From Silvibacterium dinghuense (GTDB lineage Bacteria; Acidobacteriota; Terriglobia; Terriglobales; Acidobacteriaceae): a stretch of 64,000 nt of DNA. Location: positions 1 through 64,000 of the forward strand of contig NZ_SDMK01000003.1 in NCBI RefSeq assembly GCF_004123295.1. The letters run 5' to 3'. Positions 6,741-54,086 of the stretch are shown piece after piece; the first letter of the stretch is position 1, and each line of letters opens with the position of its first letter. The notes beneath the pieces are model-generated. The model worked only from the letters and a program-made list of their open reading frames with translations. It ran no database searches and was not told the origin of the DNA. The position numbers and the translations under genes are program-made.

Positions 6741-7212
6741 GGCGATAATTCCTCCGGTCGAGCAGCCTTGTGCGGCTACTCCCGTTTGGGGGTGAGGGGG
6801 CCGTCCACACGCATCCATGCTGCATTCCGCAGCCTGACTTGGGGTGTGGTGTTCGGAAGCGAACTGCTTAAAGAAAAGCACTAAGACTTAGCAGCAGAAA
6901 TAACTCAATATCTTTTGCGAATGGCGAGTAATTGAGGCAGGCTCTGATGATGGCCCTGAGAAGCGCCTGGTTTATTTCTGCGCTTCCGATCGAGAAACTA
7001 TCGCCACATGGAACCGGCGATCATTACATAACGATCAACATCGCATGAATTACATCGGAAATAAATCATCGTAAACAAGTAATGAAGGTTGGAAAGATAT
7101 CCCAAGGGACACACGGATATAAGAAAGAGTGCGCCGGAGTCGGGAATTATGAAAAGTTGACGTACATACGACAGATTCGACGACCTGCACGCGGATATAA
7201 AAGGAAACGCAT
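6741..7212. promoter_or_regulatory. Divergent promoter region, PstS-like gene / tethered sigma operon
   Basis: This 472-bp gap separates divergent genes and is more AT-rich than its neighbours. A 9-bp direct repeat CGGATATAA occurs at 7114-7122 and 7192-7200, the second just ahead of the AAAGGAAA ribosome-binding site of the sigma gene. A possible -35 element TTGACG lies at 7157-7162 but no convincing -10 follows at the usual distance. No gene is supported here. Confidence 0.45.
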
Positions 7213-10014
7213 ATGCGCCTCGTTCACCCGCGCCTCCCAGACTCCGACTCCGGGCTGACGCTTGAGAGCCTTTTCGCCGCCAAGTACACATGGCTATTGC
7301 GGTGGGCACTGCATTTTTCTCACAATGATCGCGCCCAGGCTGAGGATCTTGTCCAGGAAACCTTTGTCCGCATTCTCAATCTTCGCGGCAGCATCGACGG
7401 CGATAACATCGAAGCTCTGCTTTACACGCAACTCCGTTTTGCATATTTAACCGAACGCCGCCGCAACCATCTGCTGCAAAACCTCGATGTCGTCGATTTC
7501 GATACCCTCACAATTGGCCTGCGCACTTTTTCGACCCTCGACCAGATGCAGGTGCAAAACGACTTAAGAAGAATCCTCGAATACCTGTTGTGGAGGCGGC
7601 GAGCAGCTAAGTTCGCCAGCTTTTTCCTGTTGCGATTTTTCCACGGCTTTGCTGTAGATGAGGTTGCTGCCATCTGCCGGGTTACGCGCAATGCGATCGA
7701 TCTGGGATTGCGCAATGCACGCGAGGAACTGAAGAGCTATCTGGCTGATCCGGCGCGAATGCAGGTACTCGGTCGAGGAGCCGCACCGGAAGTACGACAA
7801 CTCAACAGCACGCTTTCCTCCCCTGAATTTGCCGATGCATTGATCGAATCCATTTTCGCCGCATCATGCGGTCACTGTCCCGCGACGGAACTTGAACGCC
7901 GCTATGCTGCACTCAACGCGCCATCCCTCGATATCGACCTGTTAGCCCATATCGTGAGCTGTCGAGCTTGTTTGGAAAAGATTCGGCGCATCGGTGCTGC
8001 ACCGCCTGATCTCCCTGCGAGTAGTTCAATGGAAACTGGCCGACGTCGTTCGCGCTCAAAGCGCTCCCTATCGTCGGAAAAGGATATCCTCGCGCGTATT
8101 TTCACGCACGGTCGGGAGCGCATGCGGGAGATTTTCTATCACGACCCATCAGAGCTGGTCATGGTGTTGAACGGAGAAGTCGCTGCTGTTCGTGACATCA
8201 GCTCAGCTCGCGCCATTCTTAAGGTTGAGGCGCGGTCTATCGAGAAGCTGGAACTGATCGAGATCTTCAGCGAACAAGGGCTATTGATGTTAATGCTTCC
8301 AGTCACAGAACATCCGCCGCAGGCATCGCCAGAGCTTTCAAGCGGAGTCGTGCTGAGCCGCGACCGTAATCTACGCCTTTCTCTTCGCTTCACTGCGGAA
8401 GGCGCGCTGATTGAAGCACATTATTTCGATCCACAGTTCGGTGCCGTATTCGCAGGGAACGAGAATTTCACACCGCGGCCCAGGCAGGACGATGAATCCC
8501 CAGCAGAGTTAAAGCTTGAGGATGTGAGAAAAACGGACCGCTCACAGCTGCAGCAGATTTGGACCAGGCTACGGAATTGGCTGTACATACAACCGCTAAT
8601 TCCTGTGAGCGCGATTGTCCTCCTAGCAGCTGGTCTCGCAATCTGGCAACATACCACGCATCCGGAAGAGCAGATCCAGGTCTCGGCCATGCTCAATGAC
8701 AGTGTCCGTGCGGAACGCCAGCATCGCATCGCGCACGGTCCGGGTATCGTTCACCAGAGCGTGGAGATTCACTCCTCGCGTGGCATCTTTCATCATGATC
8801 TCTATCGCGATATCGATGGGCGTCGGCGTCCACGGCCGCAATCTATCAATAGCGCGGAGAAAGAGCTGCGCGACAAACTTGCCGACGCTGGACTTGAGTG
8901 GAACGACCCGCTCTCCGTTGCCGGCTTCGAAGCATGGCGCGATCATATCGCTGGAGAGCAGGACAGCGTTGCGCATACAGCAGCCGGTCTGATCACCGTC
9001 ACCACTCATGCCCCCTCCGGGCCAGTGCTCAGCGAATCGGTCACTCTTCGCTTGAGTGACCTGCATCCCGTCGCCCGCAGCCTTGTCTATCGAGATCAGG
9101 AAACGATCCAGATTGCCGAGTTGAGCTACGAGGTTCTGCCTTGGGATGCGAGAAGCGAGCAGTGGTTCGAGCCGCTCTCTTCTCGCACAACGATATCGCA
9201 TCCCATTACACTGCCTCAGGCTTATCATCCAGCGACGCTCACCACCGCGGATCTTGATGTAACCGAGCTCGCTGCGATGCTCGCACTCCAGCAGCTCAAT
9301 GCAGAGACAGAACGTCTCGAAATCGTGCGTTCTGTCGGGGGCGTTACGGTCAAGGGCATCGTCGCCACGAACGAGCGCAAACAAGAGATTGCAAGCCGCC
9401 TGCGCTTAATTCCTCATGTTTCGGTAGAAATTCGCAGTTATCAGGATCTAGCTTCGGAACAATCAGCCTCATCTGCTCCGACCGAGATCAAGGCTGTTTC
9501 CGTTTCTTCTGAGGTCAGCCCCCTTGACGACGATTGTGTCTCGCAGCATCTCACACAGGATCGCTGCCGCCAGCTCGCCTACATCCTGCTTGAGACCTCG
9601 GCAGCACTGGGGCGGGAGAATCACCATCTCGACGAGCTGCAGCGCCAGTACCCCGACATACAAATGCTCTCTCCCGGCGCCCGTACTTTATTAGCTGAAC
9701 TCACGCGCCTGCATGTGCTGCATCTGCTTTCTGCTGTACATGAGCAGATTGAAAGCTTCCCCACCCTCGGTTTCTCCTCGCAGTCTTCTCCTGCCGATAC
9801 CATTGCTAACCTCAGCAATGCCGTTGAGCGCGATCAATTGCTGACGCGAGAGTTGGTCTACGCACGCGACGAGCACTCCCGCTCCGCCGCACTTATTTTG
9901 CAAGACCTCGCCACCTCAGCTGCAGCAGTACAAGCCGCCGCCTCGAACTTCCCCGCTTCCCACCCTGACCAGCAAGACTCTTCTCTCACGGATATCAAGT
10001 CCCCTCACCAGTAG
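7213..10014 (+). CDS. Membrane-tethered ECF sigma factor fused to anti-sigma-like zinc motif and periplasmic domain
   Basis: 933 aa. Residues about 15-110 match sigma-70 region 2 (ALHFSHNDRAQAEDLVQETFVRIL) and 125-180 match region 4 with its helix-turn-helix (HGFAVDEVAAICRVTRNAIDLGLRNAREEL), as in ECF sigma factors, which are normally about 170-200 aa. C219, C222, then H246-x3-C250-x2-C253 reproduce the HxxxCxxC signature of zinc-binding anti-sigma (ZAS) domains. Residues 290-430 form a further cytoplasmic part of unknown type. A single membrane span lies at about 459-477, preceded by Arg residues, giving an N-in topology; the remaining 450 residues would be periplasmic. The sigma domain is therefore probably held at the membrane and released or activated by an outside signal (inference). 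ATG with AAAGGAAA upstream. The receptor gene starts 14 bp downstream, indicating one operon. Confidence 0.8.
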   Translation: MRLVHPRLPDSDSGLTLESLFAAKYTWLLRWALHFSHNDRAQAEDLVQETFVRILNLRGSIDGDNIEALLYTQLRFAYLTERRRNHLLQNLDVVDFDTLTIGLRTFSTLDQMQVQNDLRRILEYLLWRRRAAKFASFFLLRFFHGFAVDEVAAICRVTRNAIDLGLRNAREELKSYLADPARMQVLGRGAAPEVRQLNSTLSSPEFADALIESIFAASCGHCPATELERRYAALNAPSLDIDLLAHIVSCRACLEKIRRIGAAPPDLPASSSMETGRRRSRSKRSLSSEKDILARIFTHGRERMREIFYHDPSELVMVLNGEVAAVRDISSARAILKVEARSIEKLELIEIFSEQGLLMLMLPVTEHPPQASPELSSGVVLSRDRNLRLSLRFTAEGALIEAHYFDPQFGAVFAGNENFTPRPRQDDESPAELKLEDVRKTDRSQLQQIWTRLRNWLYIQPLIPVSAIVLLAAGLAIWQHTTHPEEQIQVSAMLNDSVRAERQHRIAHGPGIVHQSVEIHSSRGIFHHDLYRDIDGRRRPRPQSINSAEKELRDKLADAGLEWNDPLSVAGFEAWRDHIAGEQDSVAHTAAGLITVTTHAPSGPVLSESVTLRLSDLHPVARSLVYRDQETIQIAELSYEVLPWDARSEQWFEPLSSRTTISHPITLPQAYHPATLTTADLDVTELAAMLALQQLNAETERLEIVRSVGGVTVKGIVATNERKQEIASRLRLIPHVSVEIRSYQDLASEQSASSAPTEIKAVSVSSEVSPLDDDCVSQHLTQDRCRQLAYILLETSAALGRENHHLDELQRQYPDIQMLSPGARTLLAELTRLHVLHLLSAVHEQIESFPTLGFSSQSSPADTIANLSNAVERDQLLTRELVYARDEHSRSAALILQDLATSAAAVQAAASNFPASHPDQQDSSLTDIKSPHQ

Positions 10015-10028
10015 GACAGGACACAGCA

Positions 10029-13000
10029 ATGCACCTATGGTTCAGAAGATGTCTCCGCAGTGTGTCGTTTTGGCTGTTTGTGCTCCTTTGGACTTTCCCC
10101 TGCCTTGCACAGACCGCCCGATTTGCCGGTCAGGTTACCGACGCTCAGAATGCCGCCATCCCACATGCCGCCGTGGAAGTTACAAATCTTGACTCAGGCG
10201 TGCAACTGCATACCGAAACCGACGATGCCGGTTCCTACACTGTGCCCTATCTCACCGCCGGGCACTATCGCATTGTTGTGCAATCGCCAGGCTTCGGCGT
10301 TTCTGCTCACGACGTAGCGTTGGGTATGGGCCAGGCTCTGATCTTCAACGTGCAGTTAAGTGTTGGTAGCGCACAAACGACAGTCAATGTGCAGAGCGGA
10401 TCGGAACTCACGCAGCTGCATCTAGAGAACTCCGAGGTCAGTGGCACGATCACAGGTAAGGAAGTTGCCGGTATTCAGCTCAATGGCAGAAACTTCTCGC
10501 AACTCATTGCGCTTGCTCCTGGGGTCAGTAATCAGACCCAACAGGACGAAGCGCGGGTAGGCATGGCCGGCAGCGTTGCCTACAGCGTGAATGGTGGCCG
10601 CACCGAGTACAACAGTTTTCAGGTGGATGGCTCGGAAACGCTCAACGTCGGCATCAACAAGGATCACAGCACCCTCATCGTCTATCCCAGCATTGATGCA
10701 ATTCAGGAGATCAAGGTCCTCACCTCCAATTATGGCGCTATGTACCCGAGCACAGGCAATGGCACCACCATTGTCACCACCAAATCTGGTGCGGATAGCT
10801 ATCACGGCAGCCTCTATGAGTTCTTCCGCAATGAGGATCTCAATGCTAAAGGTTATTTCGATGTGGGTAACAGCGCTCCGCTCTATCGCCGCAATGATTT
10901 CGGCGGAACCATAGGCGGCCCATTGTCGATTCCGCATCTCTATGACGCGCGTAGCCACACTCACTTTTTCTTTTCTGAAGAAGCGCGCATTGAGAAAGAC
11001 CCTTATGCCTACCGGCAGGCTGTGCCCTCGCTTGGAGAGCGTAACGGAGATTTCAGTACTGTTTGCCCGGCCGTAGCCAATGGCGGCCAGGCATCGTTCT
11101 CCCGCACGGAGTATCCGGATTGCCCCGATCTCTACCTGGGCAACAGCACCAGCCCCTTCACTTTTTACAACAACCAGATGACTTATCCAGGAAATACCGG
11201 TGTCTTCCTCAACCATAATGCACTCGCGCTGCTTGGCAACGGCATCTTCCCTGCCCCGAACGCAACCACCGGCTGCACCACCACAGGCTCATCCTGCTAT
11301 CTCGCCGACGCTTCGCTGCCGACATACTGGAGAGAAGAACTCTTTCGCATCGACCATGCTCTCCCTGCGAATCAGCAATTGAGCTTCCGCTACATCCATG
11401 ATGAATGGAGCGAAACTACACCTGTCCCGCAGTATGCCTATACCCAGGACACCTTTCCCACCATCTGGAATAAGTTCTATGCGCCGGGCCTGAGCCTGGT
11501 AGCGCGGCTCTCCGGAGCCTTCTCTTCGAGCTTCCTCAACGAGCTTGTCGTCAGCTACACCAACTCTCACATCACTCTTCAGGATGAGGGCGCACCCGCG
11601 GTCAGTCTGGCACGGCCCACGATTCTCGATACAAGCTGCAGCAATACAGCGGAATGCGGGTTCAGCACCATCTTCAATAACGGCGGCCACGGCACCGATG
11701 GTATAGCCAAGATGCCTGGTGTCGCGATTGCAGGCAATAACGAAGAGTATGGCGGCCTGGGTTTTGCGACCGATCCTGGCTACATGCCATGGGAGCACAG
11801 CAACCCTGCCTACAGCTTTGCCGACAATCTCGACAAGATGCTGGGGCGGCATCACCTGCAATTCGGCGCCCAGTGGGTCGTCTTTCAACGCAATCAGATC
11901 AATGGTCCCATCGGCGCAGCTACGGGCGACACGCAAGGGCTGCTTACCTTCAGCAATGAGCGCACAATCGGCTCAACGGGCAATGCTTTTGCCGATTTTC
12001 TTTATAGCCAGACCACCAACGCCGCGCCGGCCGGTGGCTATGGAGCCATCTCCAGCTTCCAGCAGGACAGTGGTCAGTCCCACTATCGCCAGCGCTATCA
12101 AATCGTCGAGCCTTATATCCAGGACGACTTCAAAGCGACACCGCACCTGACATTAAACCTCGGCCTGCGCCTCAGTCTCTTCGGCACATTCACTACTGCT
12201 GATCACAATGCCTGGAACTGGGAGAGATCTATCTTCAGCTCAGCGCTGGCACAGACTGTAACAGTCGACGGAGAAGGCGGTCTGCGCAACCCTGAAACTG
12301 GCGCAAACTATCCGATTTATCTGAGCAACGGCAGCGTGAATCCGCTGGTAGTGAATGGCGTCGTGCGATGCGGCGTGAACGGCATCCCCTCCAGTTGCAT
12401 GTCCGGACATCTCTTCAATCCAGCGCCGCGCGTGGGCTTTGCCTGGGACCCGACCGGAGCCGGCAAACTGGCTCTGCGCGGAGGCTACGGCATCTTCTTC
12501 GAGCACGGTACCGCGGATGAGGCCAACACCGGCTCTCTCGAAGGCTCAGCCCCCATCGTTCTCAGCATGACGCAAATTAATCCTACCGGCTGGGGAACCA
12601 TTGGCCTGGACAACTCATCCGGTGTCTATTCCCCATCGGCCTTTCCTATCAATGTTACCGCCATTCCAACCAAAGCTGTATGGCCCTACGTGCAGCAGTG
12701 GAGCTTCAGCATGGAACACACACTCCCAGGCGACGCGCTTGCCACAGTGGCCTATGTGGGCAGCAAGGGTACACATCTCACGACAGAGGTCGAGAGCAAC
12801 CAGCTGACTCCGCTGGCAACGGGAAAGAATCCCTTCGCCGCCCACCAACCCCTGCACACCCGTGGCGCGAACTACGCAGCCAGCACAAGTTCGGATACAG
12901 GTGACTGCACAGTTTCGCCCGCAGGTGTCTTTACACTCATCAACGGCACGACGGTGAGCCCGGGCGATGCGGCCTATCCCAATGTTGTCTCTGCGTGCTA

Positions 13001-14033
13001 CAGCGCGATCGGCGCAGTCAACAGCTTCTCGTCAGCCACCGCCAATAGCATCTCACCGAATTCACTGCGCAGTTATGCCCCGGGCATCGGTGAAATCTAT
13101 GCTCTGGAGAATGTCGCCAACTCCAACTACAACGCTCTCCAGGCCACACTCCGCAGAACGCGCGGCCCTCTGACACTGGGCATCGCATATACCTACAGCC
13201 ATTCCTTCGATAATGCCTCTGACCGCTCGGACAGCACCTTCGTCAACTCCTTCAACCTGCGCTCGAATCGTGCCAGCTCGAACTTTGACCAGCGCCATCT
13301 CCTGCACATCAGCTATATCTACGACCTGCCTTTGATCCAGTTTTTTGATAACTTCCTGCACTTCATGGACAACGATCCCACCAATACAGCCGCGGATCAG
13401 CCCTATGACCGCGGTGCATGGGCCAATTCCCGCTCAGTCAAGGCTGTACTCGGAGGATGGCAGCTCAGTGGTCTCACGCTCTATGAAACCGGCATCCCTT
13501 TCACCGTCGTGAATAACGGTACGCCGACGGGCATCAGCGCGCTCGATAACGCAGGCGTAGCGAACGGCGTAGGCTCAGGCTCCTATCCTGATCTCTCCGG
13601 CATCTCGCCTCACAGCCGTGTACCCGCAGGCGGCAGGAACAGCAAAAGCTTTGGCCCGCTTTTACTGAATCCCGCAGCGTTCCTCGCTCCGCAGGGCCTC
13701 ACTTTTGGTAATGCCGGACGCAACTCCCTCAACAATCCCAGCCGATGGAACTGGGATATGGCTCTGCTCAAAACCTTCCGGATAGCCGGGGTCGTCAACG
13801 CCGAGTTCCGCGCGGAATCCTTCAATGTCTTCAACCACACCCAGTTCCGTATCTATGATCCGACCCTCGGCAATCAGGCGGAGAACGAAGTCAGCTGCTA
13901 TGGCGGACCAGTCGCCTATTACAGCGCGGGAGGAGGAGACGGAACCGACTGCCTCACCGGTAATTCCTTTCTCCATCCTGTCGACGCCCACCGTCCGCGC
14001 ACCCTGCAGCTGGCACTGAAACTGGCATTCTGA
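10029..14033 (+). CDS. Oar-like TonB-dependent receptor
   Basis: 1,334 aa with a signal peptide (about 1-27, ending CLAQ). Residues about 30-115 form a carboxypeptidase-regulatory-like beta-sandwich (FAGQVTDAQNAAIPHAAVEVTN...GSYTVPYLTAGHYRIVVQSPGF). A plug-like section follows (QLNGRNFSQLIALAPGV, YSVNGGRTEYNSFQVDGSE, IQEIKVLTSNYGAMYPSTGNGTTIVTTKSG). The rest is a large outer-membrane beta-barrel ending in the aromatic-terminal ALKLAF. There is no N-terminal STN signalling domain, so any link to the sigma factor is not of the FecA type. It lies 14 bp after the sigma gene and 11 bp before the next gene, so is co-transcribed. Substrate unknown, probably a large oligomer. Confidence 0.88.
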   Translation: MHLWFRRCLRSVSFWLFVLLWTFPCLAQTARFAGQVTDAQNAAIPHAAVEVTNLDSGVQLHTETDDAGSYTVPYLTAGHYRIVVQSPGFGVSAHDVALGMGQALIFNVQLSVGSAQTTVNVQSGSELTQLHLENSEVSGTITGKEVAGIQLNGRNFSQLIALAPGVSNQTQQDEARVGMAGSVAYSVNGGRTEYNSFQVDGSETLNVGINKDHSTLIVYPSIDAIQEIKVLTSNYGAMYPSTGNGTTIVTTKSGADSYHGSLYEFFRNEDLNAKGYFDVGNSAPLYRRNDFGGTIGGPLSIPHLYDARSHTHFFFSEEARIEKDPYAYRQAVPSLGERNGDFSTVCPAVANGGQASFSRTEYPDCPDLYLGNSTSPFTFYNNQMTYPGNTGVFLNHNALALLGNGIFPAPNATTGCTTTGSSCYLADASLPTYWREELFRIDHALPANQQLSFRYIHDEWSETTPVPQYAYTQDTFPTIWNKFYAPGLSLVARLSGAFSSSFLNELVVSYTNSHITLQDEGAPAVSLARPTILDTSCSNTAECGFSTIFNNGGHGTDGIAKMPGVAIAGNNEEYGGLGFATDPGYMPWEHSNPAYSFADNLDKMLGRHHLQFGAQWVVFQRNQINGPIGAATGDTQGLLTFSNERTIGSTGNAFADFLYSQTTNAAPAGGYGAISSFQQDSGQSHYRQRYQIVEPYIQDDFKATPHLTLNLGLRLSLFGTFTTADHNAWNWERSIFSSALAQTVTVDGEGGLRNPETGANYPIYLSNGSVNPLVVNGVVRCGVNGIPSSCMSGHLFNPAPRVGFAWDPTGAGKLALRGGYGIFFEHGTADEANTGSLEGSAPIVLSMTQINPTGWGTIGLDNSSGVYSPSAFPINVTAIPTKAVWPYVQQWSFSMEHTLPGDALATVAYVGSKGTHLTTEVESNQLTPLATGKNPFAAHQPLHTRGANYAASTSSDTGDCTVSPAGVFTLINGTTVSPGDAAYPNVVSACYSAIGAVNSFSSATANSISPNSLRSYAPGIGEIYALENVANSNYNALQATLRRTRGPLTLGIAYTYSHSFDNASDRSDSTFVNSFNLRSNRASSNFDQRHLLHISYIYDLPLIQFFDNFLHFMDNDPTNTAADQPYDRGAWANSRSVKAVLGGWQLSGLTLYETGIPFTVVNNGTPTGISALDNAGVANGVGSGSYPDLSGISPHSRVPAGGRNSKSFGPLLLNPAAFLAPQGLTFGNAGRNSLNNPSRWNWDMALLKTFRIAGVVNAEFRAESFNVFNHTQFRIYDPTLGNQAENEVSCYGGPVAYYSAGGGDGTDCLTGNSFLHPVDAHRPRTLQLALKLAF

Positions 14034-14044
14034 GCGAGGTTGAC

Positions 14045-15433
14045 ATGAAGAAAATATTTTTACGCCGCAGTTCGCCTCTCCCCTCTGTCAACATCGTTTG
14101 CTCTCCATGCACCGCACCTGCATATGTGACGTGGTCGAGCCATCGGCCCATGCTTACTCTTGCTTCGCTTCACGCACTTTTGCTGTTCACGATACTGCTC
14201 GGCTGTGGCGGAGGATCAACAACGCTGGTAGTTCCCAATCCAGACGCTACCGTGGGACTTCCTACACCTTCTGCCGCGAGTGCAAGCAATACTTACTCCG
14301 GCGGGCAGAGTCCGGGAGCGTGGACTTTCATTGTCAATCACACCTCGAACACTTACACCTATCGGCCCATCACCTATTCCACGGCCTCGACCTCAGGTAC
14401 CTTCCAGTCGGCGCATGGATTTCTCCAACTCGGCGCCGACAGCTCTGCCGGATATGCTGTCGAGGTTCCCGGCCGTGCGGCTATACTCCGGCCAGGAGAT
14501 AGCACCACACCACCGATCTTCGCTGTACCCCAGACCCAATGCTATGCCATTACCGGCCGGGTCCGTTTCCAGTACATCGGAATGCAGGCCGGCACCTTTT
14601 CCAATAGCTTTGGCGGCAGCGCACCCACACTCGGCTATGGCAGTGTTGTCGCAAGTACAGACACTACCGGCAAGAGCTGGCAGTTCCAGAGCCTGCAAGG
14701 GAACATCGTGATCGGACCCGGCTCGTTCAACGGAAGCTGTGCGACATCCAACGATCAGGCCACGATTAGTTTTACCGGGCAGCAGAGCATCCTCAATTTA
14801 CTGTGGACTCCCAACCAGGTCGAAGCACCCACGGCTGGTACGCAGTCCAACATATGGATCGGCCCCTCCGGCTTCTTTGCCTCCGACCAGAGCGACCCCA
14901 CGGCATCGTCACCTACAGGAGCCTCCGTCGCCGGCATCATTGAGCCGACCTCAGCACTGACTACGAGCAGCGTGACGACCCAGCAATACGCCGGTTTCTT
15001 CTACCAGTCGGCCACCGCTCTGGGATACAACGGCACATCTCCAACGATCACGATCACCTCACCGATTGCCTTCGGCCAGACCGCCTCTTCGGGAACTTCG
15101 ATGACCGGCGGCATTTATCCCAACGACGATGTAAGCCAAACGCCGGAAGCAAACATCGTCCTCACATTGGGTGCGCAGGACGCCACCTACAACGGCCTCT
15201 ATAGCTCAGCCACTCTTACCGTCCTCGATCCCAACCAGAACTGCGCCAATTACACGGGAGGAGGAAGCACGGCTACTACCAGTCTCAACGCTCAGGGTTA
15301 CGTCACTTGCACCTTCCCCGCGATCGTTGTCGCTGGCAATCCGGAGAATAAGTACGTCCTCTTCGTCACCTCTTATAACTGGGCCGCCCGCATCGGAGGG
15401 GCTCCCCTGCAGCTCTATCTCGTTCAGCAGTAG
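14045..15433 (+). CDS. Putative exported lipoprotein of unknown function
   Basis: 462 aa. The N-terminus carries a hydrophobic segment followed by LLGC-GGGS, a plausible lipobox with the acylated Cys near residue 56. The ATG at 14045 has GAGG upstream; an internal ATG at 14150 would give a more usual short lipoprotein signal and could be the true start. The mature part is rich in Ser, Thr, Gly and Tyr, without recognisable enzymatic motifs, and looks like an all-beta secreted protein. It follows the receptor by 11 bp. By analogy with receptor/surface-lipoprotein pairs it may be the partner that captures ligand at the cell surface (inference). Confidence 0.65.
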   Translation: MKKIFLRRSSPLPSVNIVCSPCTAPAYVTWSSHRPMLTLASLHALLLFTILLGCGGGSTTLVVPNPDATVGLPTPSAASASNTYSGGQSPGAWTFIVNHTSNTYTYRPITYSTASTSGTFQSAHGFLQLGADSSAGYAVEVPGRAAILRPGDSTTPPIFAVPQTQCYAITGRVRFQYIGMQAGTFSNSFGGSAPTLGYGSVVASTDTTGKSWQFQSLQGNIVIGPGSFNGSCATSNDQATISFTGQQSILNLLWTPNQVEAPTAGTQSNIWIGPSGFFASDQSDPTASSPTGASVAGIIEPTSALTTSSVTTQQYAGFFYQSATALGYNGTSPTITITSPIAFGQTASSGTSMTGGIYPNDDVSQTPEANIVLTLGAQDATYNGLYSSATLTVLDPNQNCANYTGGGSTATTSLNAQGYVTCTFPAIVVAGNPENKYVLFVTSYNWAARIGGAPLQLYLVQQ

Positions 15434-15492: not shown

Positions 15493-16494
15493 ATGTTCCG
15501 CTCCCCCAGCATGCCCCGCACCAGCTTTGCTGCCTGCTTACTGTTCTCTATCCTCACGCCCGCTCTCTGGAGCCAGCAGGCACAAGCGCCAGCCCAGAAT
15601 CCGAGCACTGAACGCTGGGACATTCTTTCTCTAACAGGCAGTGGTCTGCATGCGCAGCCGCCAATTCTCGGCCAGAAGGACACCCTGCCCGATTTCACTC
15701 GCGAGCTGATACAGGTGCAATGGCGTGATAACGACCCAATGGATCTCTATGTAATTCGTCCAGCGGGAATCGCAAAGCCTCCGGTTGTTTTGGTGCTCTA
15801 CAGCTATCCCACCGATACGGCAAAATTTCTCAACAATGCACTGTGTGAGAATTTCATCCGGCATGGTTTTGCCGTTGCCGGATTCGTCTCCGCGCTGACC
15901 GGCTCTCGCTACCATGATCGGCCAATGAAGCAGTGGTTCGTCAGCCAGCTCCCCGAGTCTATCGGTGCGTCAGTACACGATGTACAGATGGTGATCAACT
16001 ATCTGGAAACTCGCAGCGATCTCGACGCCGACCGTGTTGGAATCTTCGGCCAGGGCTCCGGCGGCACCATTGCAATCCTTGCTGCAGCCACCGACTCGCG
16101 CATCCAGGCTGTCGATGTGATGGATCCCTGGGGGGACTGGCCCAATTGGCTGGCTAAATCTCCGCAGGTTCCAGAGAGCGAGCGCCCTGCCTACCTGCGG
16201 CCGGAGTTCCTGGCATCGGTTGCACCGCTTGATCCCGTCCATTGGCTGACTCAATGGCGGAAACATCCAACACACACGGTAATCCGCATTCAGGAGAACC
16301 TCTTCAACCTCGCTATGCCGGAAGATGTGCGTCGTCAGATGGAAACTGCTGCAGCCGGCAGCGCCGAAATCGTCGAGTACCATAGCCGGCAGGAATACCT
16401 CGAAAAAGTAAGTACGAATAGCCGGATGCTCGACTGGATGCAGTCGAAGCTGGACACGAAAAATCTCAGTGCCGATAACAAGGCTGGCAGCTGA
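15493..16494 (+). CDS. Exported alpha/beta-hydrolase-like protein, nucleophile position altered
   Basis: 333 aa with a signal peptide (about 1-27, ending LWSQ) and a good ribosome-binding site (CGGAGG, 6 nt before ATG). The sequence follows the dienelactone-hydrolase/acetyl-xylan-esterase type of alpha/beta fold: a strand PPVVLVLYSYPTD, then DADRVGIFGQGSGGTIAILAAATDSRIQAVDVMDPWG. At the nucleophile elbow, the expected GxSxGG reads G186-Q-G188-S189-G-G, so the catalytic serine is either displaced by one residue or lost. The usual C-terminal Asp/His pair is not obvious. Last gene of the sigma/receptor operon (59 bp after the lipoprotein). It may be a binding protein or an esterase with an unusual elbow. 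Confidence 0.65.
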   Translation: MFRSPSMPRTSFAACLLFSILTPALWSQQAQAPAQNPSTERWDILSLTGSGLHAQPPILGQKDTLPDFTRELIQVQWRDNDPMDLYVIRPAGIAKPPVVLVLYSYPTDTAKFLNNALCENFIRHGFAVAGFVSALTGSRYHDRPMKQWFVSQLPESIGASVHDVQMVINYLETRSDLDADRVGIFGQGSGGTIAILAAATDSRIQAVDVMDPWGDWPNWLAKSPQVPESERPAYLRPEFLASVAPLDPVHWLTQWRKHPTHTVIRIQENLFNLAMPEDVRRQMETAAAGSAEIVEYHSRQEYLEKVSTNSRMLDWMQSKLDTKNLSADNKAGS

Positions 16495-41308: not shown

Positions 41309-44300
41309 TTAGAAGGTCAGCTTCAGCGCCATCTGGCCGATACGTGCCGGTTCCGATCCCGTCGCCGTGATCTTACCCTCACTACCGCCGACATTGCCGA
41401 TCGTCGAATCATAGGAGAGCTGGTTGGTAGAGTTCGGAGCCGCAAAACTCGGCTGATTGAAGGCGTTAAACATCTCCCAGCGGAATTGCAGGTTATAGCG
41501 CTCGAGGAACGGGAAGTTCTTGAACAGGCCCGCATCCGTATAGGTCAGCGGAGGAGCCTGCATCAGGTTCTTATCGCTGTCACCAAAGGTTCCCGGCTGG
41601 TTCTCTACAAACGCATTCACGTTGTAGTAGCTGTTGATCCAGTTCGATTTCCCTCCCTTGCGCACCTCAAGTCCCTGGCCGGAGACGCGATCGGCGCGAT
41701 CCTCATACTGCAGCGCCTCGGACTCGTTCGCGCCGAAGCCGCCGCTCACCGAGAATGGGAAGCCGGACTGCGCCGTGGTAATGAGGCTCAGCTCCCAACT
41801 CCCCAGCACCTGCCGCAGCAGGCCATTATGTGCGCGCAGCTCCGGTGTGGTGTAGGTCAGGTTGCCTACCCAGCGCAGCGGCACGTTCTCACTCGAAATG
41901 CCATGGCTCCATGCCAGGTTGAACGGATCGCCTAGCTGGTTCGTTCCGAAGCTGATGTTGGCCGACGATGCCAGATCCTGCGTCTTCGACCAGCTGAAGT
42001 TGGTTTGGAACTGTAGATTGTGGCTCAGCCGCCGCTCCAGACTCACCTGCAACGCGTGGTAGTTCGCTGTGCCGTAGCTCAGCATGTCGAGAATCTCCCC
42101 GAACTGCGTGTACTGGCTGCGCGCTCCCGCGCTCGCGTACACGCCCGGGTTGCGGTCCAGGATGAATGGCGCATGATAGGTCTGGCTACCCACGTACGCC
42201 AGCCGCAACACCATCGCCTGACCAATCTGCTGCTCCAGCGTCACATTCCAGCTCTGCGTCGTGCCCAGCTTGAAGCCCGGATCGATGGTTGCCGGAATGC
42301 TCAGCCCGGAATTGAAAGCCACCGTCGAGGCCGGCTTGTAGGATGAGGATGCAAATGGCGGAAATGGGCTCACATAATTGGTGCCCGCAAATGTCGACCA
42401 CGGAGCCGCCAGGTCCAGCGGTGTCGTGCCGGTGCCGTAGAGGCTGTAGGTCGGAGCAAACGGCGCATTGTCCGCCGTGTGGTTGTAGTCCGAGTAGATC
42501 ATCGGCGAGGTAAATAGTCCGAAGCCCGCATGCACGGAGGTATGCGGCAGGCTGCGCGGCTGCCAGGCCACACCGATGCGCGGCTCCCAGTACCCGTATG
42601 TCGTGCGCATCAGCCCATCGCCAATACCCGTATCGCCGGGGAAGACCAGGCCTACCGGCGCATTGGGATACACCGTGCTCTGCTGTCCGGGAACGAAAGT
42701 CGCTGCGCGTCCATTCACAATCTGGGGCGGAATATTCGGATCCCAGCGCAGCCCTGCCGTCAACGTCAGATTTGGCCGGAAGCGATACTCGTCCTGCGCG
42801 AAGAAACCCGGTTGCCAGCCATGCACTGCCGCAATCTCGCCGGCGCCTTGCGTGTACGACGAGAGGTCGCCGAGCAGATAATCGGCCAGCCCCACGCCCG
42901 TATACTCGCCGCTGAAGTCGAGGATCGGCGCGGCCGGATACTGCGTCTGCTCCGCCGCCGACTGGTGCTGCACATCCACACCGAAGGAGAGTGTGTGCGT
43001 GCCGATCGTCTTCGTCAGCTGGTCATAGAGCCCATAAGTCGTACGACCCTCCGACGACGGTTCGTAGTAGCCCACGTTGAACCCGTCGCCGCCCACCGAG
43101 AAGCCTTCCACATAGCACTGCCCCGGCAATTCGGTCACATCGATATAGTTCGACCAGCAGAAGGGCTGGCCTTCCTTGGTATCCGCCTCGGCGCCGTTCA
43201 CCGCATTCATCTGCGTCCAGAAGGCCGAGAGCACGTTCACCGTCGAGGGCGAGATCGTCCATGTATAGTTCAACGTCTCGTTGTAGTAGCGCTCGTTGAT
43301 GGCAAAGTCGTAGGTCCAGTTATTGTTCATCGCCAGCAGGTTTCCCGGTACATCCCCTGAAGGCTGAATGAAGCTGTTCACGAAGCTGCGCAGAGAGAGC
43401 CGGTGATTCGGCGTGATGTCGTAATCCAGCCGCGACGTCCCTTCATCAAACTGGTTAATGAACGCCGGCGAGGTGTAATAAGTGAGTCCGTCCGCCTGCT
43501 GCCCCAGTGGCAGCGCATCTGACGCAACCTTCACCGCGACGGCGCTGTAGAGGCTCGGGTCGATCTGGTTCGGCACACCATTCACCATATGGAAAGGCGC
43601 CGGCAGCGTCTCCTGCCCGCTGCTCGAGTAGGCACTGAAGTCGCCGTTGAGCATGGCCTGCGTCGGCAGGTAGGAGGAAAGCGATGTCGAGGCCGAGGCA
43701 TTCCGCGTCCCCTGGTAATTAGCAAAGACGAACAGCTTATTCTTGATGATCGGCGCGCCCGCATAGCCGCCGAACTGGTTCTGGTGCAGCGGGTTCACTT
43801 CGTGCGAGAACCAGTCCTTCGCGTTGAAGACCTTATCGCGGTAGAAGTCGAAGGCTCCGCCATGAATATCATTGGTGCCGGACTTGGTCTGGATGCTCAC
43901 CACCGCACCCGGAGCGAATCCATATGCGGCATTGAAGTTGTTCGTGATCACGCGGAATTCCTGCGTCGCGTCGGCATTGGGAAACGGCGCCGGCAGCCCG
44001 AGATAGGTATCCATATTGGGTACGCCGTCCAGCAGGAAGTACGTGCTGCCCTGCGTGCCGCCGTTCGCGGATACAGTCGTCTCCGTAGGGAACGAAAATC
44101 CCGTCTGCGAATAGGTGTTGCCGCCCGAAGTCATACCCGGCGCGAGATAGACCAGAGTCGAAGGCGACCGCCCGTTCAATGGCAGCTGCGAAACAGACGT
44201 CGAATCGATCGTCTGCCCCAGCGAACCGCTTGTCGTGTTCAGCAGCTCGGCATTGGCTGTTACCGTGACCGTCTGCTGTACGTCGCCTGTCTTCAGCGTC

Positions 44301-44635
44301 ACATTCTGTGTCGCCGGAGTATCCACCGTGATTGTAATGCCCTGCTGCAGGTAGCTCTGGAAACCCGAAGCCTGAACAGACAGCGTGTAATCGCCCGGTG
44401 GCAGCGGCGCCACGCGATAGGTACCCACCTCTGAGCTCTTCGACGTCAGCGTTAACCCTGTGCCCGTGTTTTTAACCGTGACCGTTGCCCCGGGAATCGC
44501 TGCTCCCGTCGGGTCCACAATCTGCCCGTTGAGGCTGGCTCCTACTGCCTGCGCCAAAGCCGGAGCGGCCATGCCAAGCATGAGCACACAGATCAGCAGC
44601 GCCAGCAGAGAATCTCTGCGCCAGTTCCTATCCAT
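41309..44635 (-). CDS. Oar-like TonB-dependent receptor
   Basis: 1,108 aa, ATG with GGAGG upstream. Signal peptide about 1-28 (LLALLICVLMLGMAAPALAQ). Residues about 32-118 are a carboxypeptidase-regulatory-like domain (ASLNGQIVDPTGAAIPGATVTVKNTGTG ... GTYRVAPLPPGDYTLSVQASGF). Plug: QLPLNGRSPSTLVYLAPGM, FLLDGVPNMD, TQEFRVITNNFNAAYGFAPGAVVSIQTKSGTN. The C-terminal barrel ends MALKLTF. It lies downstream of nothing on the same strand and next to the propeller two-component system, which may regulate it (inference). Substrate unknown, likely oligosaccharide. Confidence 0.9.
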   Translation of the reverse strand: MDRNWRRDSLLALLICVLMLGMAAPALAQAVGASLNGQIVDPTGAAIPGATVTVKNTGTGLTLTSKSSEVGTYRVAPLPPGDYTLSVQASGFQSYLQQGITITVDTPATQNVTLKTGDVQQTVTVTANAELLNTTSGSLGQTIDSTSVSQLPLNGRSPSTLVYLAPGMTSGGNTYSQTGFSFPTETTVSANGGTQGSTYFLLDGVPNMDTYLGLPAPFPNADATQEFRVITNNFNAAYGFAPGAVVSIQTKSGTNDIHGGAFDFYRDKVFNAKDWFSHEVNPLHQNQFGGYAGAPIIKNKLFVFANYQGTRNASASTSLSSYLPTQAMLNGDFSAYSSSGQETLPAPFHMVNGVPNQIDPSLYSAVAVKVASDALPLGQQADGLTYYTSPAFINQFDEGTSRLDYDITPNHRLSLRSFVNSFIQPSGDVPGNLLAMNNNWTYDFAINERYYNETLNYTWTISPSTVNVLSAFWTQMNAVNGAEADTKEGQPFCWSNYIDVTELPGQCYVEGFSVGGDGFNVGYYEPSSEGRTTYGLYDQLTKTIGTHTLSFGVDVQHQSAAEQTQYPAAPILDFSGEYTGVGLADYLLGDLSSYTQGAGEIAAVHGWQPGFFAQDEYRFRPNLTLTAGLRWDPNIPPQIVNGRAATFVPGQQSTVYPNAPVGLVFPGDTGIGDGLMRTTYGYWEPRIGVAWQPRSLPHTSVHAGFGLFTSPMIYSDYNHTADNAPFAPTYSLYGTGTTPLDLAAPWSTFAGTNYVSPFPPFASSSYKPASTVAFNSGLSIPATIDPGFKLGTTQSWNVTLEQQIGQAMVLRLAYVGSQTYHAPFILDRNPGVYASAGARSQYTQFGEILDMLSYGTANYHALQVSLERRLSHNLQFQTNFSWSKTQDLASSANISFGTNQLGDPFNLAWSHGISSENVPLRWVGNLTYTTPELRAHNGLLRQVLGSWELSLITTAQSGFPFSVSGGFGANESEALQYEDRADRVSGQGLEVRKGGKSNWINSYYNVNAFVENQPGTFGDSDKNLMQAPPLTYTDAGLFKNFPFLERYNLQFRWEMFNAFNQPSFAAPNSTNQLSYDSTIGNVGGSEGKITATGSEPARIGQMALKLTF

Positions 44636-50525: not shown

Positions 50526-53500
50526 TTAAAAAGTGTACTTCGCCGAGAACTGAAAGAACCTCGCATCTGGCGTATACGACTGCAGGCTGCGGGTACTCGT
50601 GATCTCGCCGCCTGTTGGTCCATTCGTCGTAGACGGCGTTCCGAAAGCGGGAGTATTCAGCAGGTTGAAAACATCGGCCCGGAACTGCAGCCGCTGCTCA
50701 CGCCAGGTAGTGAAGTTCTTGAAGAAGGACATATTCACGCGATCCAGGCCCGGGCCAAACGTCTGGCTGCGGGTTCCGCCGGCATAGCTGAGAACCGTGG
50801 CCAGATTCGATGTAGCCGCAGTAAGATCGCTCGCCGGAAGCGGACTTCCAAACGCACATGGATTGAACCAGTGTGCGACGGTCTTGGTCTTCGTCGCGCA
50901 AGTCGTGGAGTTGGAAGCCGGCGAACTGCCGCCGCTTGCAAACGGATCGCTCAAGCGGATCGCATTTGCGGTGCCCAGACCCGATGCAACCGTGATGTTC
51001 GGGCCGATGCTGATCGGATTGCCGGTCTGAGCCTGGAAGGTCAAGCTCGTGGACCAGCCGCCGACGGCCTGGTTCACAACACCCGCATGGTTATAGAAAC
51101 GGCGTCCCTGTCCAAACGGAAGCTCATAGTTTCCGTTGAAGGTAACACGGTGACGCACATCCATCGGAGAGTTCGCATACTCCATGCTGATTGGAATCAG
51201 CAACGGGTTGCGATACCAACTCGCATTGTTCGACTCGAGCACCAGAATGTCATTGTCGAGCCCATGCGCAAAGGTATAAGTAGCCAGGAAGCTCAGGCCG
51301 GAGGAATAACGCTTTTCAAGCTTGGCCTGGAGCGAATTGTAGTTTGACGATGCACGATAGCTAATGAAGTTCGCACCGGAGAAGTTTGTGAACGGCCGCA
51401 CCGACTGCGCACTGCTCGTCGAAGGTACAATCTCCATCGGAGAATTCACGTTGTAGGAAGTCGGAAGATGGCGTCCATCCGTGCCGACATAGCTGAGCGT
51501 TGCCGTCATCTGATTGCTCAGAGAACGCTCCACGCTCAGGTTGTACTCCTGGCTATAAGTCGTCTTTGGGTCCTTATCCGCACCGATCGGAGTCAGCAGT
51601 GACGTGCCTGCGGAATTCAGCAGCCCCGCCGCGATCTGCGAGCTGAAGCCATTCGCAAGCGTGAAGCCATCCGTGGGGCAGTTGCCCTGATAGCAGGAAG
51701 TGTTACCGCCGTAGTTTGCGGTAAAGCTGAAGGGGTAATTCTGAGACATATTGTTCCCAAGTCCCAGCGCCTGGAATCCACCATAGAAGAGACCGTATCC
51801 GGCACGCACCACGGTGCGGTCATCCAGGCTATAGGCCACACCAATGCGCGGAGCGAAGTTATCCTTCCGCGGATCGACGAGATAGCGGTTCTTCGAATAC
51901 ACCAGCGACAGGTTGCTGGAACTTAGAGCCGAAAGAAAGCCGGACGGAATCGTCGTGCTTTCCTTGCTGATGGGCATGGCGAAGGTGCCAGTCCCCGCTC
52001 CGGCAGCAAGCGTCTCCGGGAAGAGCGATGCCTGGTTATCATGGCGCTCCAGGATCGGCGTCTGATAGTCATAACGCACGCCGATGTTCACTGTAAGCCG
52101 CGGCGTCGCCTTCCAGTCATCCTGCACATAGGCAGAGTGCGCCCAGCGCAGATCGTCGGTATTCAGGATGTTCGAGATGCTGGAGCTGTACTGCGCATCC
52201 TGCAGAAAGTCCGCAGCACCGTATCCGCTGTCCTGCACTCCGGGAATCCCGGTATAAGCACCGGAATAGTCGTAATAACCACGAGCATAGGGCGGCTGCA
52301 ACGCATCGAACCGGATACGCTGAAAGCTATAGCCCACCTTGATGGAGTGGTTCTTCACCTGCTGCGTCAGATTGTCCAGAATCTGATACGAATTCTGGTA
52401 CTCCTGCGAAGGATAGTACGCAGGCTGCCCCATCGTCGTCAGCGAATTCACACCATCGAGTTCGATGTTCGGAATGCCGCCAAAGCCTGTCTCGTAAGGA
52501 ATACCGCCCAGTCCGAGGCTGGAGGAAACATCCGAATCGCTGGACGCGCCAGTATAGAAAAAGTGGCCGTAGTTATAGCCGAAGCGGAACTCGTTCACCA
52601 GCTTATCGGTGAAAACATGCGTTTCGCTGAGCGCAAAATTCTCGCCCAGGTTGCGATTGTTGCCGTCGCTCGTATACGAACCGCCATCCACGATCACACC
52701 CAGCGGAGGAGGCTGATAGCCGGCCTGATTCAGATAGCTGTAGCGCACAAACGCCTGATCCTTCGAACTGATATTCCAGTCCACGCGCGCGTCCCACTGC
52801 CAGGTATTGTTCGTCGCATTCACCAGCGACGTGTAGTTGTTATAAGTCTGCCCTTCGGCACCGGTATTCGGCAGCGGATACAGGTTCAGAACCTTCTGCG
52901 CCAGGCTGTTGATCTGCGAAGAGCAAAGCACGTTCACCTGCCCGTTGCAGCTCTGAACATAGGGGTTGCTGGTTCCATTCGTAGGCGTAGCCCCCGTGCT
53001 CGTCTGTCCGCCTGCACTCGAAAGCTGATAGAGGTAGATCGCTCCCGAGGCTCCACTCAGCGTGGGATTGAGCAGCTCGCTGAAGTCTCCGGTACGCATC
53101 TTTGCCGTGGGCACAGAAAAATACCCATCATTCACGCCCTGCACAATGCGATTCGCTTCCACATCGCCGAAGAAAAACAGCTTGTTCTTAAGAATGGGCA
53201 GGCCCAGAGTCGCCCCGAACTGATTCTCGCGATACTTGGCTACCGAGGTATCGAAATAATTGCGCGCGTCGAAAATATCATTCCGTACATATTCCCATGC
53301 CGTACCGTGAATCTGGTTGGTGCCTGACTTCAGGCTGGCATTGATGACCGCACCGGCAGAGTGCCCGAACTCTGCACTGTAATCGCCGGTCTGGATCTTG
53401 AACTCGGCCAGCGCATCCGGCGGAGGACGAACAACGAAAGAAGATCCGTTCAGGTAATCGACAACAGCCGTATTGTTATCCACGCCGTCCAGCACAAAGT

Positions 53501-54086
53501 TGTTCTGCTCGGCATTCTGTCCATTCGCGGAGAAGTCGCCGGTCCCCGTGCCGCGTGCGCCAACCGAGGGCGTAACACCTGCGCTCAGATGCGCGATATA
53601 GACCCAGTTGCGGCCATTCAGCGGAGTGTTATTGATCTCTTTTGCATCCATCACCTGTCCCACGGATGCTTCTTCCGTCTGCAGTTGCGGCGGAGCGCTG
53701 CTCACCGTCACGGACTGATCGATCGAACCCGGCTTGAGGGCCAGGTTAACGTTTAGGCGCTGCTGTACGTTCACCTGCAGCCCAGCCTGCGTCGTCGTAG
53801 AAAAACCCGCGGCACTGGCGCTGATGCTATAGTTTCCGATCTTTACAGGCGAGAACGTATATACACCGCCATCACCTGTCACCGTCTTCAATACCAACCC
53901 GGTATCAAGATCTGTAAGTGTTACCGCCGCCTTTGCAACAACGGCTCCCGTGCCATCTTCTACGACTCCTGTGACAGCCCCTTGATCAACCTGCGCTTTT
54001 ATCGAGGACGGAAACACAATCCCCAATGCACCAAGCAAGAGAAGACAAAGTGTCCAACAGAACTGCAACGTTCTCTTCTGCGACAT
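50526..54086 (-). CDS. Oar-like TonB-dependent receptor
   Basis: 1,186 aa, GGAGG before the ATG. Signal peptide about 1-31 (FCWTLCLLLLGALGIVFPSSIKAQ). Carboxypeptidase-regulatory-like domain at about 36-118 (AVTGVVEDGTGAVVAKAAVTLTDLDTG ... GGVYTFSPVKIGNYSISASAAGF). Plug: NNTPLNGRNWVYIAHLSAGVTP, FVLDGVDNNT, LAEFKIQTGDYSAEFGHSAGAVINASLKSGTN. Barrel ends FQFSAKYTF. An AT-rich promoter with four CG steps phased at 10 bp lies about 150 bp upstream. Likely imports galactose- or amino-sugar-containing oligosaccharides for the flanking enzymes (inference). Confidence 0.92.
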   Translation of the reverse strand: MSQKRTLQFCWTLCLLLLGALGIVFPSSIKAQVDQGAVTGVVEDGTGAVVAKAAVTLTDLDTGLVLKTVTGDGGVYTFSPVKIGNYSISASAAGFSTTTQAGLQVNVQQRLNVNLALKPGSIDQSVTVSSAPPQLQTEEASVGQVMDAKEINNTPLNGRNWVYIAHLSAGVTPSVGARGTGTGDFSANGQNAEQNNFVLDGVDNNTAVVDYLNGSSFVVRPPPDALAEFKIQTGDYSAEFGHSAGAVINASLKSGTNQIHGTAWEYVRNDIFDARNYFDTSVAKYRENQFGATLGLPILKNKLFFFGDVEANRIVQGVNDGYFSVPTAKMRTGDFSELLNPTLSGASGAIYLYQLSSAGGQTSTGATPTNGTSNPYVQSCNGQVNVLCSSQINSLAQKVLNLYPLPNTGAEGQTYNNYTSLVNATNNTWQWDARVDWNISSKDQAFVRYSYLNQAGYQPPPLGVIVDGGSYTSDGNNRNLGENFALSETHVFTDKLVNEFRFGYNYGHFFYTGASSDSDVSSSLGLGGIPYETGFGGIPNIELDGVNSLTTMGQPAYYPSQEYQNSYQILDNLTQQVKNHSIKVGYSFQRIRFDALQPPYARGYYDYSGAYTGIPGVQDSGYGAADFLQDAQYSSSISNILNTDDLRWAHSAYVQDDWKATPRLTVNIGVRYDYQTPILERHDNQASLFPETLAAGAGTGTFAMPISKESTTIPSGFLSALSSSNLSLVYSKNRYLVDPRKDNFAPRIGVAYSLDDRTVVRAGYGLFYGGFQALGLGNNMSQNYPFSFTANYGGNTSCYQGNCPTDGFTLANGFSSQIAAGLLNSAGTSLLTPIGADKDPKTTYSQEYNLSVERSLSNQMTATLSYVGTDGRHLPTSYNVNSPMEIVPSTSSAQSVRPFTNFSGANFISYRASSNYNSLQAKLEKRYSSGLSFLATYTFAHGLDNDILVLESNNASWYRNPLLIPISMEYANSPMDVRHRVTFNGNYELPFGQGRRFYNHAGVVNQAVGGWSTSLTFQAQTGNPISIGPNITVASGLGTANAIRLSDPFASGGSSPASNSTTCATKTKTVAHWFNPCAFGSPLPASDLTAATSNLATVLSYAGGTRSQTFGPGLDRVNMSFFKNFTTWREQRLQFRADVFNLLNTPAFGTPSTTNGPTGGEITSTRSLQSYTPDARFFQFSAKYTF

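Follow-up and report, generated by a model that had tools for sequence, protein, structure and literature searches.

The window, a stretch of 64,000 nucleotides from Silvibacterium dinghuense (contig NZ_SDMK01000003.1, positions 1 to 64,000), encodes at 7213-10014 of the forward strand a protein in which an ECF sigma domain, a zinc anti-sigma (ZAS) segment, a membrane helix and a periplasmic sensor follow one another in a single chain, and directly downstream of it an Oar-type TonB-dependent receptor. The features of the locus, each with the evidence that places it, are as follows.

7151..7179, + strand: putative autoregulated promoter, GAAAA-N17-AGATTCG, 33 nt upstream of the ATG
7213..10014, + strand: sigma/anti-sigma/sensor fusion, 933 aa (uninterrupted ORF, ATG start, domain matches)
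7252..7758, + strand: ECF sigma domain, residues ~14-182, regions 2 and 4 (Pfam/NCBIfam; SigH, SigR and SigW structures)
7819..7998, + strand: ZAS segment, residues ~203-262, ligands C222, H246, C250 and C253 (45-sequence alignment)
8077..8427, + strand: cytoplasmic beta-domain, residues ~289-405 (AlphaFold pLDDT 91.7, folded alone)
8587..8655, + strand: single transmembrane helix, residues ~459-481 (hydropathy in 17 homologues; model helix 463-481)
8671..9195, + strand: periplasmic LolA/RseB-like domain, residues 487-661 (VIA structural matches)
9235..9471, + strand: BON-like domain, residues 675-753 (VIA; weak Pfam matches in relatives)
9520..9945, + strand: helical periplasmic tail, residues ~770-911 (AlphaFold model)
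10029..14033, + strand: Oar-type TonB-dependent receptor (CarboxypepD_reg and OMP_b-brl_4), 14 bp downstream of the fusion
14045..15433, + strand: lipoprotein-like third operon gene (same family behind the receptor in 10 loci)
15493..16494, + strand: secreted alpha/beta hydrolase, possible fourth gene (Pfam DLH, E 2.6e-6)

An earlier note on this DNA had claimed a single 933-aa protein with about 450 residues beyond its membrane span, and the intact reading frame at 7213-10014 bears this out; the opposite (minus) strand of the same interval holds many stops. Along the chain the order is ECF sigma, ZAS, beta-domain, transmembrane helix, LolA/RseB-like domain, BON-like domain and helical tail. 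An AlphaFold model of the whole fusion, built on a 17-sequence alignment, has a mean pLDDT of 75 and a pTM of 0.45, the latter low enough to leave the relative placement of the domains undefined. The earlier note identified neither the receptor gene, which begins 14 bp after the fusion, nor the beta-domain on the cytoplasmic side, nor the fold of the periplasmic part.

ECF sigma factors (group 4 sigma-70) have regions 2 and 4 and no region 3, and both regions are found in the window protein. Region 2 exceeds its curated Pfam cut-off (E 8.8e-7), region 4 is divergent and falls under its own (E 0.019), and NCBIfam sigma models cover residues ~17-181 with a best E of 5e-11, yet under their curated cut-offs. 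In VIA structural alignments residues 10-181 reach Z 11.6 against ECF sigma structures with a large rmsd, because regions 2 and 4 are differently placed; region 2 by itself reaches Z 10.6 at 2.9 A. The sigma helices lie at 17-178 in the AlphaFold model, and D45, L70, R141, E150 and E172 are among the sigma residues invariant in the aligned fusions. These matches uphold the earlier assignment of regions 2 and 4 to residues ~1-180. Pfam finds region 2 in 17/17 fusions and region 4 in five of the 17 at E 0.05, and since region 4 is divergent and below its cut-off, promoter activity of the sigma part is assumed here.

The segment that follows, modelled as helices at 203-260, was examined in an alignment of 45 relatives. 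Anti-sigma factors of the ZAS type carry zinc ligands in the pattern C/H-x(20-30)-H-x3-C-x2-C, N-terminal to a membrane helix, and this arrangement is present in the window protein. H246, C250 and C253 are invariant (45/45), and position 222 is cysteine in 42 relatives and histidine in three, an exchange expected of a zinc ligand; the ligand spacing is also preserved in 43 of the 45. The earlier note had proposed a cluster of five residues, C219, C222, H246, C250 and C253, and had staked its reading on their conservation: four of them stand, with the motif kept in 45/45, whereas C219 was rejected as a ligand (cysteine in just 2/45). The HxxxCxxC core is rare, occurring 0.029 times per 1000 aa in the other ORFs of the same loci, and relatives in which the sigma domain is separate match Pfam zf-HC2.

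Between the ZAS segment and the membrane lies the beta-domain, for which Pfam gave no match in the window protein and fold searches no convincing one (Foldseek best E 0.07, VIA best Z 5.2), although the lack of a confident match to this predicted structure is no proof of a new fold. H310, P312, G321, E350, S353, E354 and Y404 are invariant in the 17 fusions. One fused copy (L104) is without the domain, and at L106:6678-7067 it occurs alone in a 129-aa ORF, perhaps a remnant.

The protein has just one strong hydrophobic span, the best 19-residue window starting at 459, and the same span is found in all 17 aligned fusions, in agreement with the earlier placement at ~459-477. Its flanks are basic on the N side and acidic on the C side, from which an N-in/C-out topology follows. 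Residues 487-661 of the model match a LolA-like protein (4mxt, VIA Z 12.1) and RseB (2p4b, Z 10.0), and the MucB_RseB sequence profile has no match in the window protein. RseB and MucB possess a LolA-like N-terminal domain. The next domain, residues 675-753, matches BonA (Z 7.8) and OsmY (Z 6.9) near the level reached by common arrangements; the BON fold is an alpha-beta-beta-alpha-beta unit, and relatives give weak Pfam matches to BON and BON-like families.

In genome contigs the window protein alone retrieved no match, and a closer set of relatives did. Fused relatives occur within the family of the window's organism and, in a sparser spread, in further acidobacterial families; 42 non-redundant fused loci from 31 acidobacterial genomes were read. 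The one-chain arrangement of sigma domain, ZAS segment, transmembrane helix and periplasmic sensor described in the earlier note is kept throughout this set, with conserved zinc ligands. The survey for receptor linkage that the note had suggested was equally clear: in 42/42 loci the fusion is followed, in the same orientation, by a gene for an OMP_b-brl_4/TonB-dependent receptor related to that of the window, usually within 70 bp or overlapping, some of the receptors being cut by contig ends. Chance linkage is negligible when set against the ~65 OMP_b-brl_4-class receptor genes in the 5.1 Mb of the S. dinghuense genome, two of which stand behind fused sigma genes, and with only 20-34% identity between the window protein and the relatives aligned first (n=16), recent copying does not account for the linkage. 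Up to five paralogous fusion-receptor pairs occur in one genome (G035), and in a Pyrinomonadaceae MAG one more fused gene likewise lies beside such a receptor gene. CarboxypepD_reg was found in 25/25 N-termini of the downstream receptors, and the STN signalling domain in 0/25 at E 0.01.

The third gene belongs mainly to two families, the lipoprotein of the window (10 loci, this one included) and an S9-type hydrolase (11 loci, among them that of the organism's own paralogue). In the window, gene spacing suggests that the alpha/beta hydrolase gene at 15493..16494 may be a further member of the operon. Elsewhere in the window, ORF translations point to a large carbohydrate-degradation neighbourhood at 23799-61003 (pectinesterase-, GH3-, GH43- and beta-galactosidase-like), within which Oar-type receptors at 41309-44635 and 50526-54086 have no adjoining fused sigma gene.

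A motif, [AG]-A-W-W-N16-19-W-GATT, carried by the window at 7151-7179, is concentrated 60-120 nt ahead of the sigma domain, with 16 locus-hits in that interval compared with three elsewhere in 400 nt and three in the opposite-strand control. It is present in ~15/42 loci, about a third, and fits a putative autoregulated ECF promoter. Scanning the S. dinghuense genome for a regulon gave 12 matches, uninformative beyond that at 7151. In several related loci, among them L038, L046 and L112, an inverted repeat, GCGAAT...ATTCGC, surrounds the candidate promoter, and its arms could serve as an operator, either in place of a promoter or alongside one.

The same sensor is also found in proteins that lack a fused sigma domain, at 17 loci if L053 and L107, both regarded as frame-broken, are included in these counts. 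In this split form a separate sigma factor accompanies a protein composed of zf-HC2, a transmembrane helix and the sensor; 15 of the 17 sensor proteins have HxxxCxxC near the N-terminus, and most adjoin a sigma gene. The next gene encodes a TonB receptor in ten cases and a protein of ~1320 aa in seven. In the latter loci (L035, L040, L041, L042, L119, L133 and L135) the two-gene set precedes a protein of ~1310-1390 aa and no TonB receptor; weak NHL/Reg_prop propeller matches were found in the two scanned (L035 and L041), and it is possible that this protein is an alternative surface partner of the same sensor. The converse combination is encoded at L101:5739-7732, in a different, distant acidobacterial family, where a separate anti-sigma factor joins ZAS, the same beta-domain and a transmembrane helix to an unrelated periplasmic part, and a sigma gene follows directly. 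The gene after that appears rich in repeats, TPR-like as judged by eye. Taken together, the two-gene relatives and L101 point to the C-terminal half of the fusion as an anti-sigma factor, and to the sensor and the cytoplasmic half as modules.

Two loci were judged frame-broken. L053 resembled another fusion of independent origin, one that lacks the beta-domain, but its region 4 looks like a wrong-frame translation and the locus is probably a frameshift artefact; L107 represents a fused copy with a broken frame rather than a true two-gene set. At L107:4699-8435 the broken fused gene stands with a fragmented receptor, which reflects either a decaying operon or sequencing errors. In a tree of the periplasmic part the fused and split labels change six times, at least four of the changes being forced by well-supported branches, although L053 and L107 partly inflate this count, and repeated exchange or fission and fusion between the two forms can be claimed only loosely.

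Distances between the periplasmic parts correlate with those between the receptors (rho 0.41, Mantel p 0.0005; 0.38 in a partial test with the cytoplasmic half removed), compared with rho 0.16 for the cytoplasmic parts (0.03 with the periplasmic half removed), and on bootstrapping, the interval for this difference (-0.05 to 0.54) just includes zero. The comparison favours the periplasm as the part that would read the receptor. The periplasm-coding half adjoins the receptor gene, however, so that shared recombination gives the same co-variation signal.

With moderate confidence, we interpret the fusion as a one-polypeptide sigma/anti-sigma sensor that controls the adjacent receptor operon, probably through cleavage, and hence probably as a compact switch for monitoring the cell surface. 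Beyond this anatomy we infer each step, namely sigma-ZAS contact, ligand, proteolysis and regulon. At rest, the ZAS segment, joined through a short linker, would hold the sigma domain at the inner membrane and prevent regions 2 and 4 from engaging RNA polymerase, while the LolA/RseB-like and BON-like domains would sense the state of the adjacent Oar-type receptor, whether ligand-bound or signalled by a lipid or lipoprotein intermediate of receptor assembly. The signal would most likely open the periplasmic part to attack by a site-1 protease, with an RseP-type site-2 protease acting next, and the freed cytoplasmic fragment would transcribe its own operon, starting with the receptor 14 bp downstream. 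This route of clamp, signal, proteolysis and release is proposed by analogy with two systems: IutY, a sigma/anti-sigma fusion for which activation through cleavage by Prc and RseP has been shown (PMC5411451), and MucB, a protein of LolA-like fold that gates MucA proteolysis in response to lipid (PMC7400510). The S. dinghuense genome encodes RseP-class M50 and S41 family proteases, a finding merely permissive for cleavage.

IutY, or ECF243, of Pseudomonas putida (iutY PP2192, iutA PP2193) is a close precedent, with sigma and membrane anti-sigma in one chain, one membrane span, a periplasmic C-terminal part and a TonB-dependent receptor partner (PMC5411451, PMC8999054). However, it is only 374 aa long and is a member of the cell-surface signalling family, in which the receptors have a signalling domain of the STN type, whereas the window protein has 933 aa, a ZAS motif, a LolA/BON-like sensor, an additional beta-domain and a receptor without STN. 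In the related FecI/FecR/FecA system an ECF sigma factor, an inner-membrane anti-sigma factor and a TonB-dependent receptor are likewise encoded together (as here in 42/42 loci), but as separate proteins. There the STN-like end of the FecR-like periplasmic domain binds the STN domain of the receptor (PMC11637429); because the receptors described here are without STN, contact of the FecA-FecR kind cannot apply, and the window protein has no match to the FecR domain up to E 10. A bolder version of the sensor interpretation, tentative and somewhat less likely than not, is that these loci represent a separate kind of cell-surface signalling, in which a sigma-ZAS-beta-TM-LolA/BON chain reads an STN-less Oar/SusC-like receptor and its halves are exchanged as modules. 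Contact might then be made through the LolA/BON periplasm, perhaps with the CarboxypepD_reg domain of the receptor.

The LolA-like fold also invites comparison with RpoE-RseA-RseB and AlgU-MucA-MucB, where a domain of this kind in the periplasm governs an ECF anti-sigma factor, although these comprise three separate proteins, respond to stress and have no dedicated receptor, whereas here all parts form one chain. It is conceivable, if rather unlikely, that the fusion is an RseB-type sensor of envelope or lipid stress, the receptor being a target gene or the misassembled source of the stress and no nutrient signal being involved. A fold resembling RseB and MucB next to the membrane, the BON-like domain and the missing STN would all accord with this, as would the sensing of lipid A by MucB (PMC7400510), but one dedicated receptor per copy in 42/42 loci suits receptor-specific signalling better, and a general stress role sits poorly with the up to five paralogous copies of the pair in a single genome (G035) and with partners for only two of the ~65 receptor genes in S. 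dinghuense.

Retaining the receptor-linked sensor, one may ask whether release is needed at all. The sigma domain might work while anchored, or a conformational opening of the ZAS clamp might suffice in place of proteolysis; the covalent fusion makes dissociation unnecessary, the conserved beta-domain between ZAS and membrane could pass on a signal, and soluble ZAS anti-sigma factors are described as acting by conformational change (PMC8999054). We consider this unlikely, as IutY, the best studied fused precedent, is activated by cleavage and the M50 and S41 proteases are present.

Fused sigma and anti-sigma factors are themselves not new, and the earlier description of the locus as an undescribed regulatory design goes too far, given what is reported of ECF48, ECF52, ECF53 and IutY (PMC8999054, PMC5826349, PMC5411451). 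ECF52 (SCO4117), ECF48 and ECF53 are described there as fusions of sigma, zinc finger and membrane helix or helices with an extracytoplasmic domain in one protein, for which proteolytic activation has been proposed (PMC5826349, PMC8999054). Despite this common order (PMC5826349), it is highly improbable that the window protein is an ordinary member of such a group: ECF52, compared by its description, is exclusive to Actinobacteria and has a proline-rich region and a carbohydrate-binding module; Pfam finds no such module in the window protein, whose relatives are acidobacterial and whose sensor is LolA/BON-like, and the descriptions of the three groups used here mention no TonB-receptor partner and no LolA/BON sensor. 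It is scarcely credible that the protein is a membrane regulator with a degenerate sigma domain and no remaining ability to programme RNA polymerase, since, weak as region 4 is in Pfam for most members, region 2 is universal among the 17 fusions, the five sigma residues named above are invariant and an alignment with ECF sigma structures can still be made.

What is new in the receptor-linked sensor is the LolA/BON periplasm, the beta-domain, the phylum and the STN-less receptors. The combination of these, with one such receptor per operon in an acidobacterial family, was not found in the open-licence papers searched, although a LolA/BON-sensor fusion has possibly been described elsewhere. The open-licence literature searched likewise yielded nothing on the regulation of acidobacterial Oar-type TonB-dependent receptors. 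Acidobacteria carry dozens of these receptors (~65 in S. dinghuense), and for a subset of them the fusion family supplies dedicated, operon-linked regulators. It predicts a route from receptor to sigma factor that dispenses with the STN contact of FecA-type cell-surface signalling and, because one bacterial family has this sensor in both a fused and a two-gene version, makes the question of why the parts are fused directly testable.
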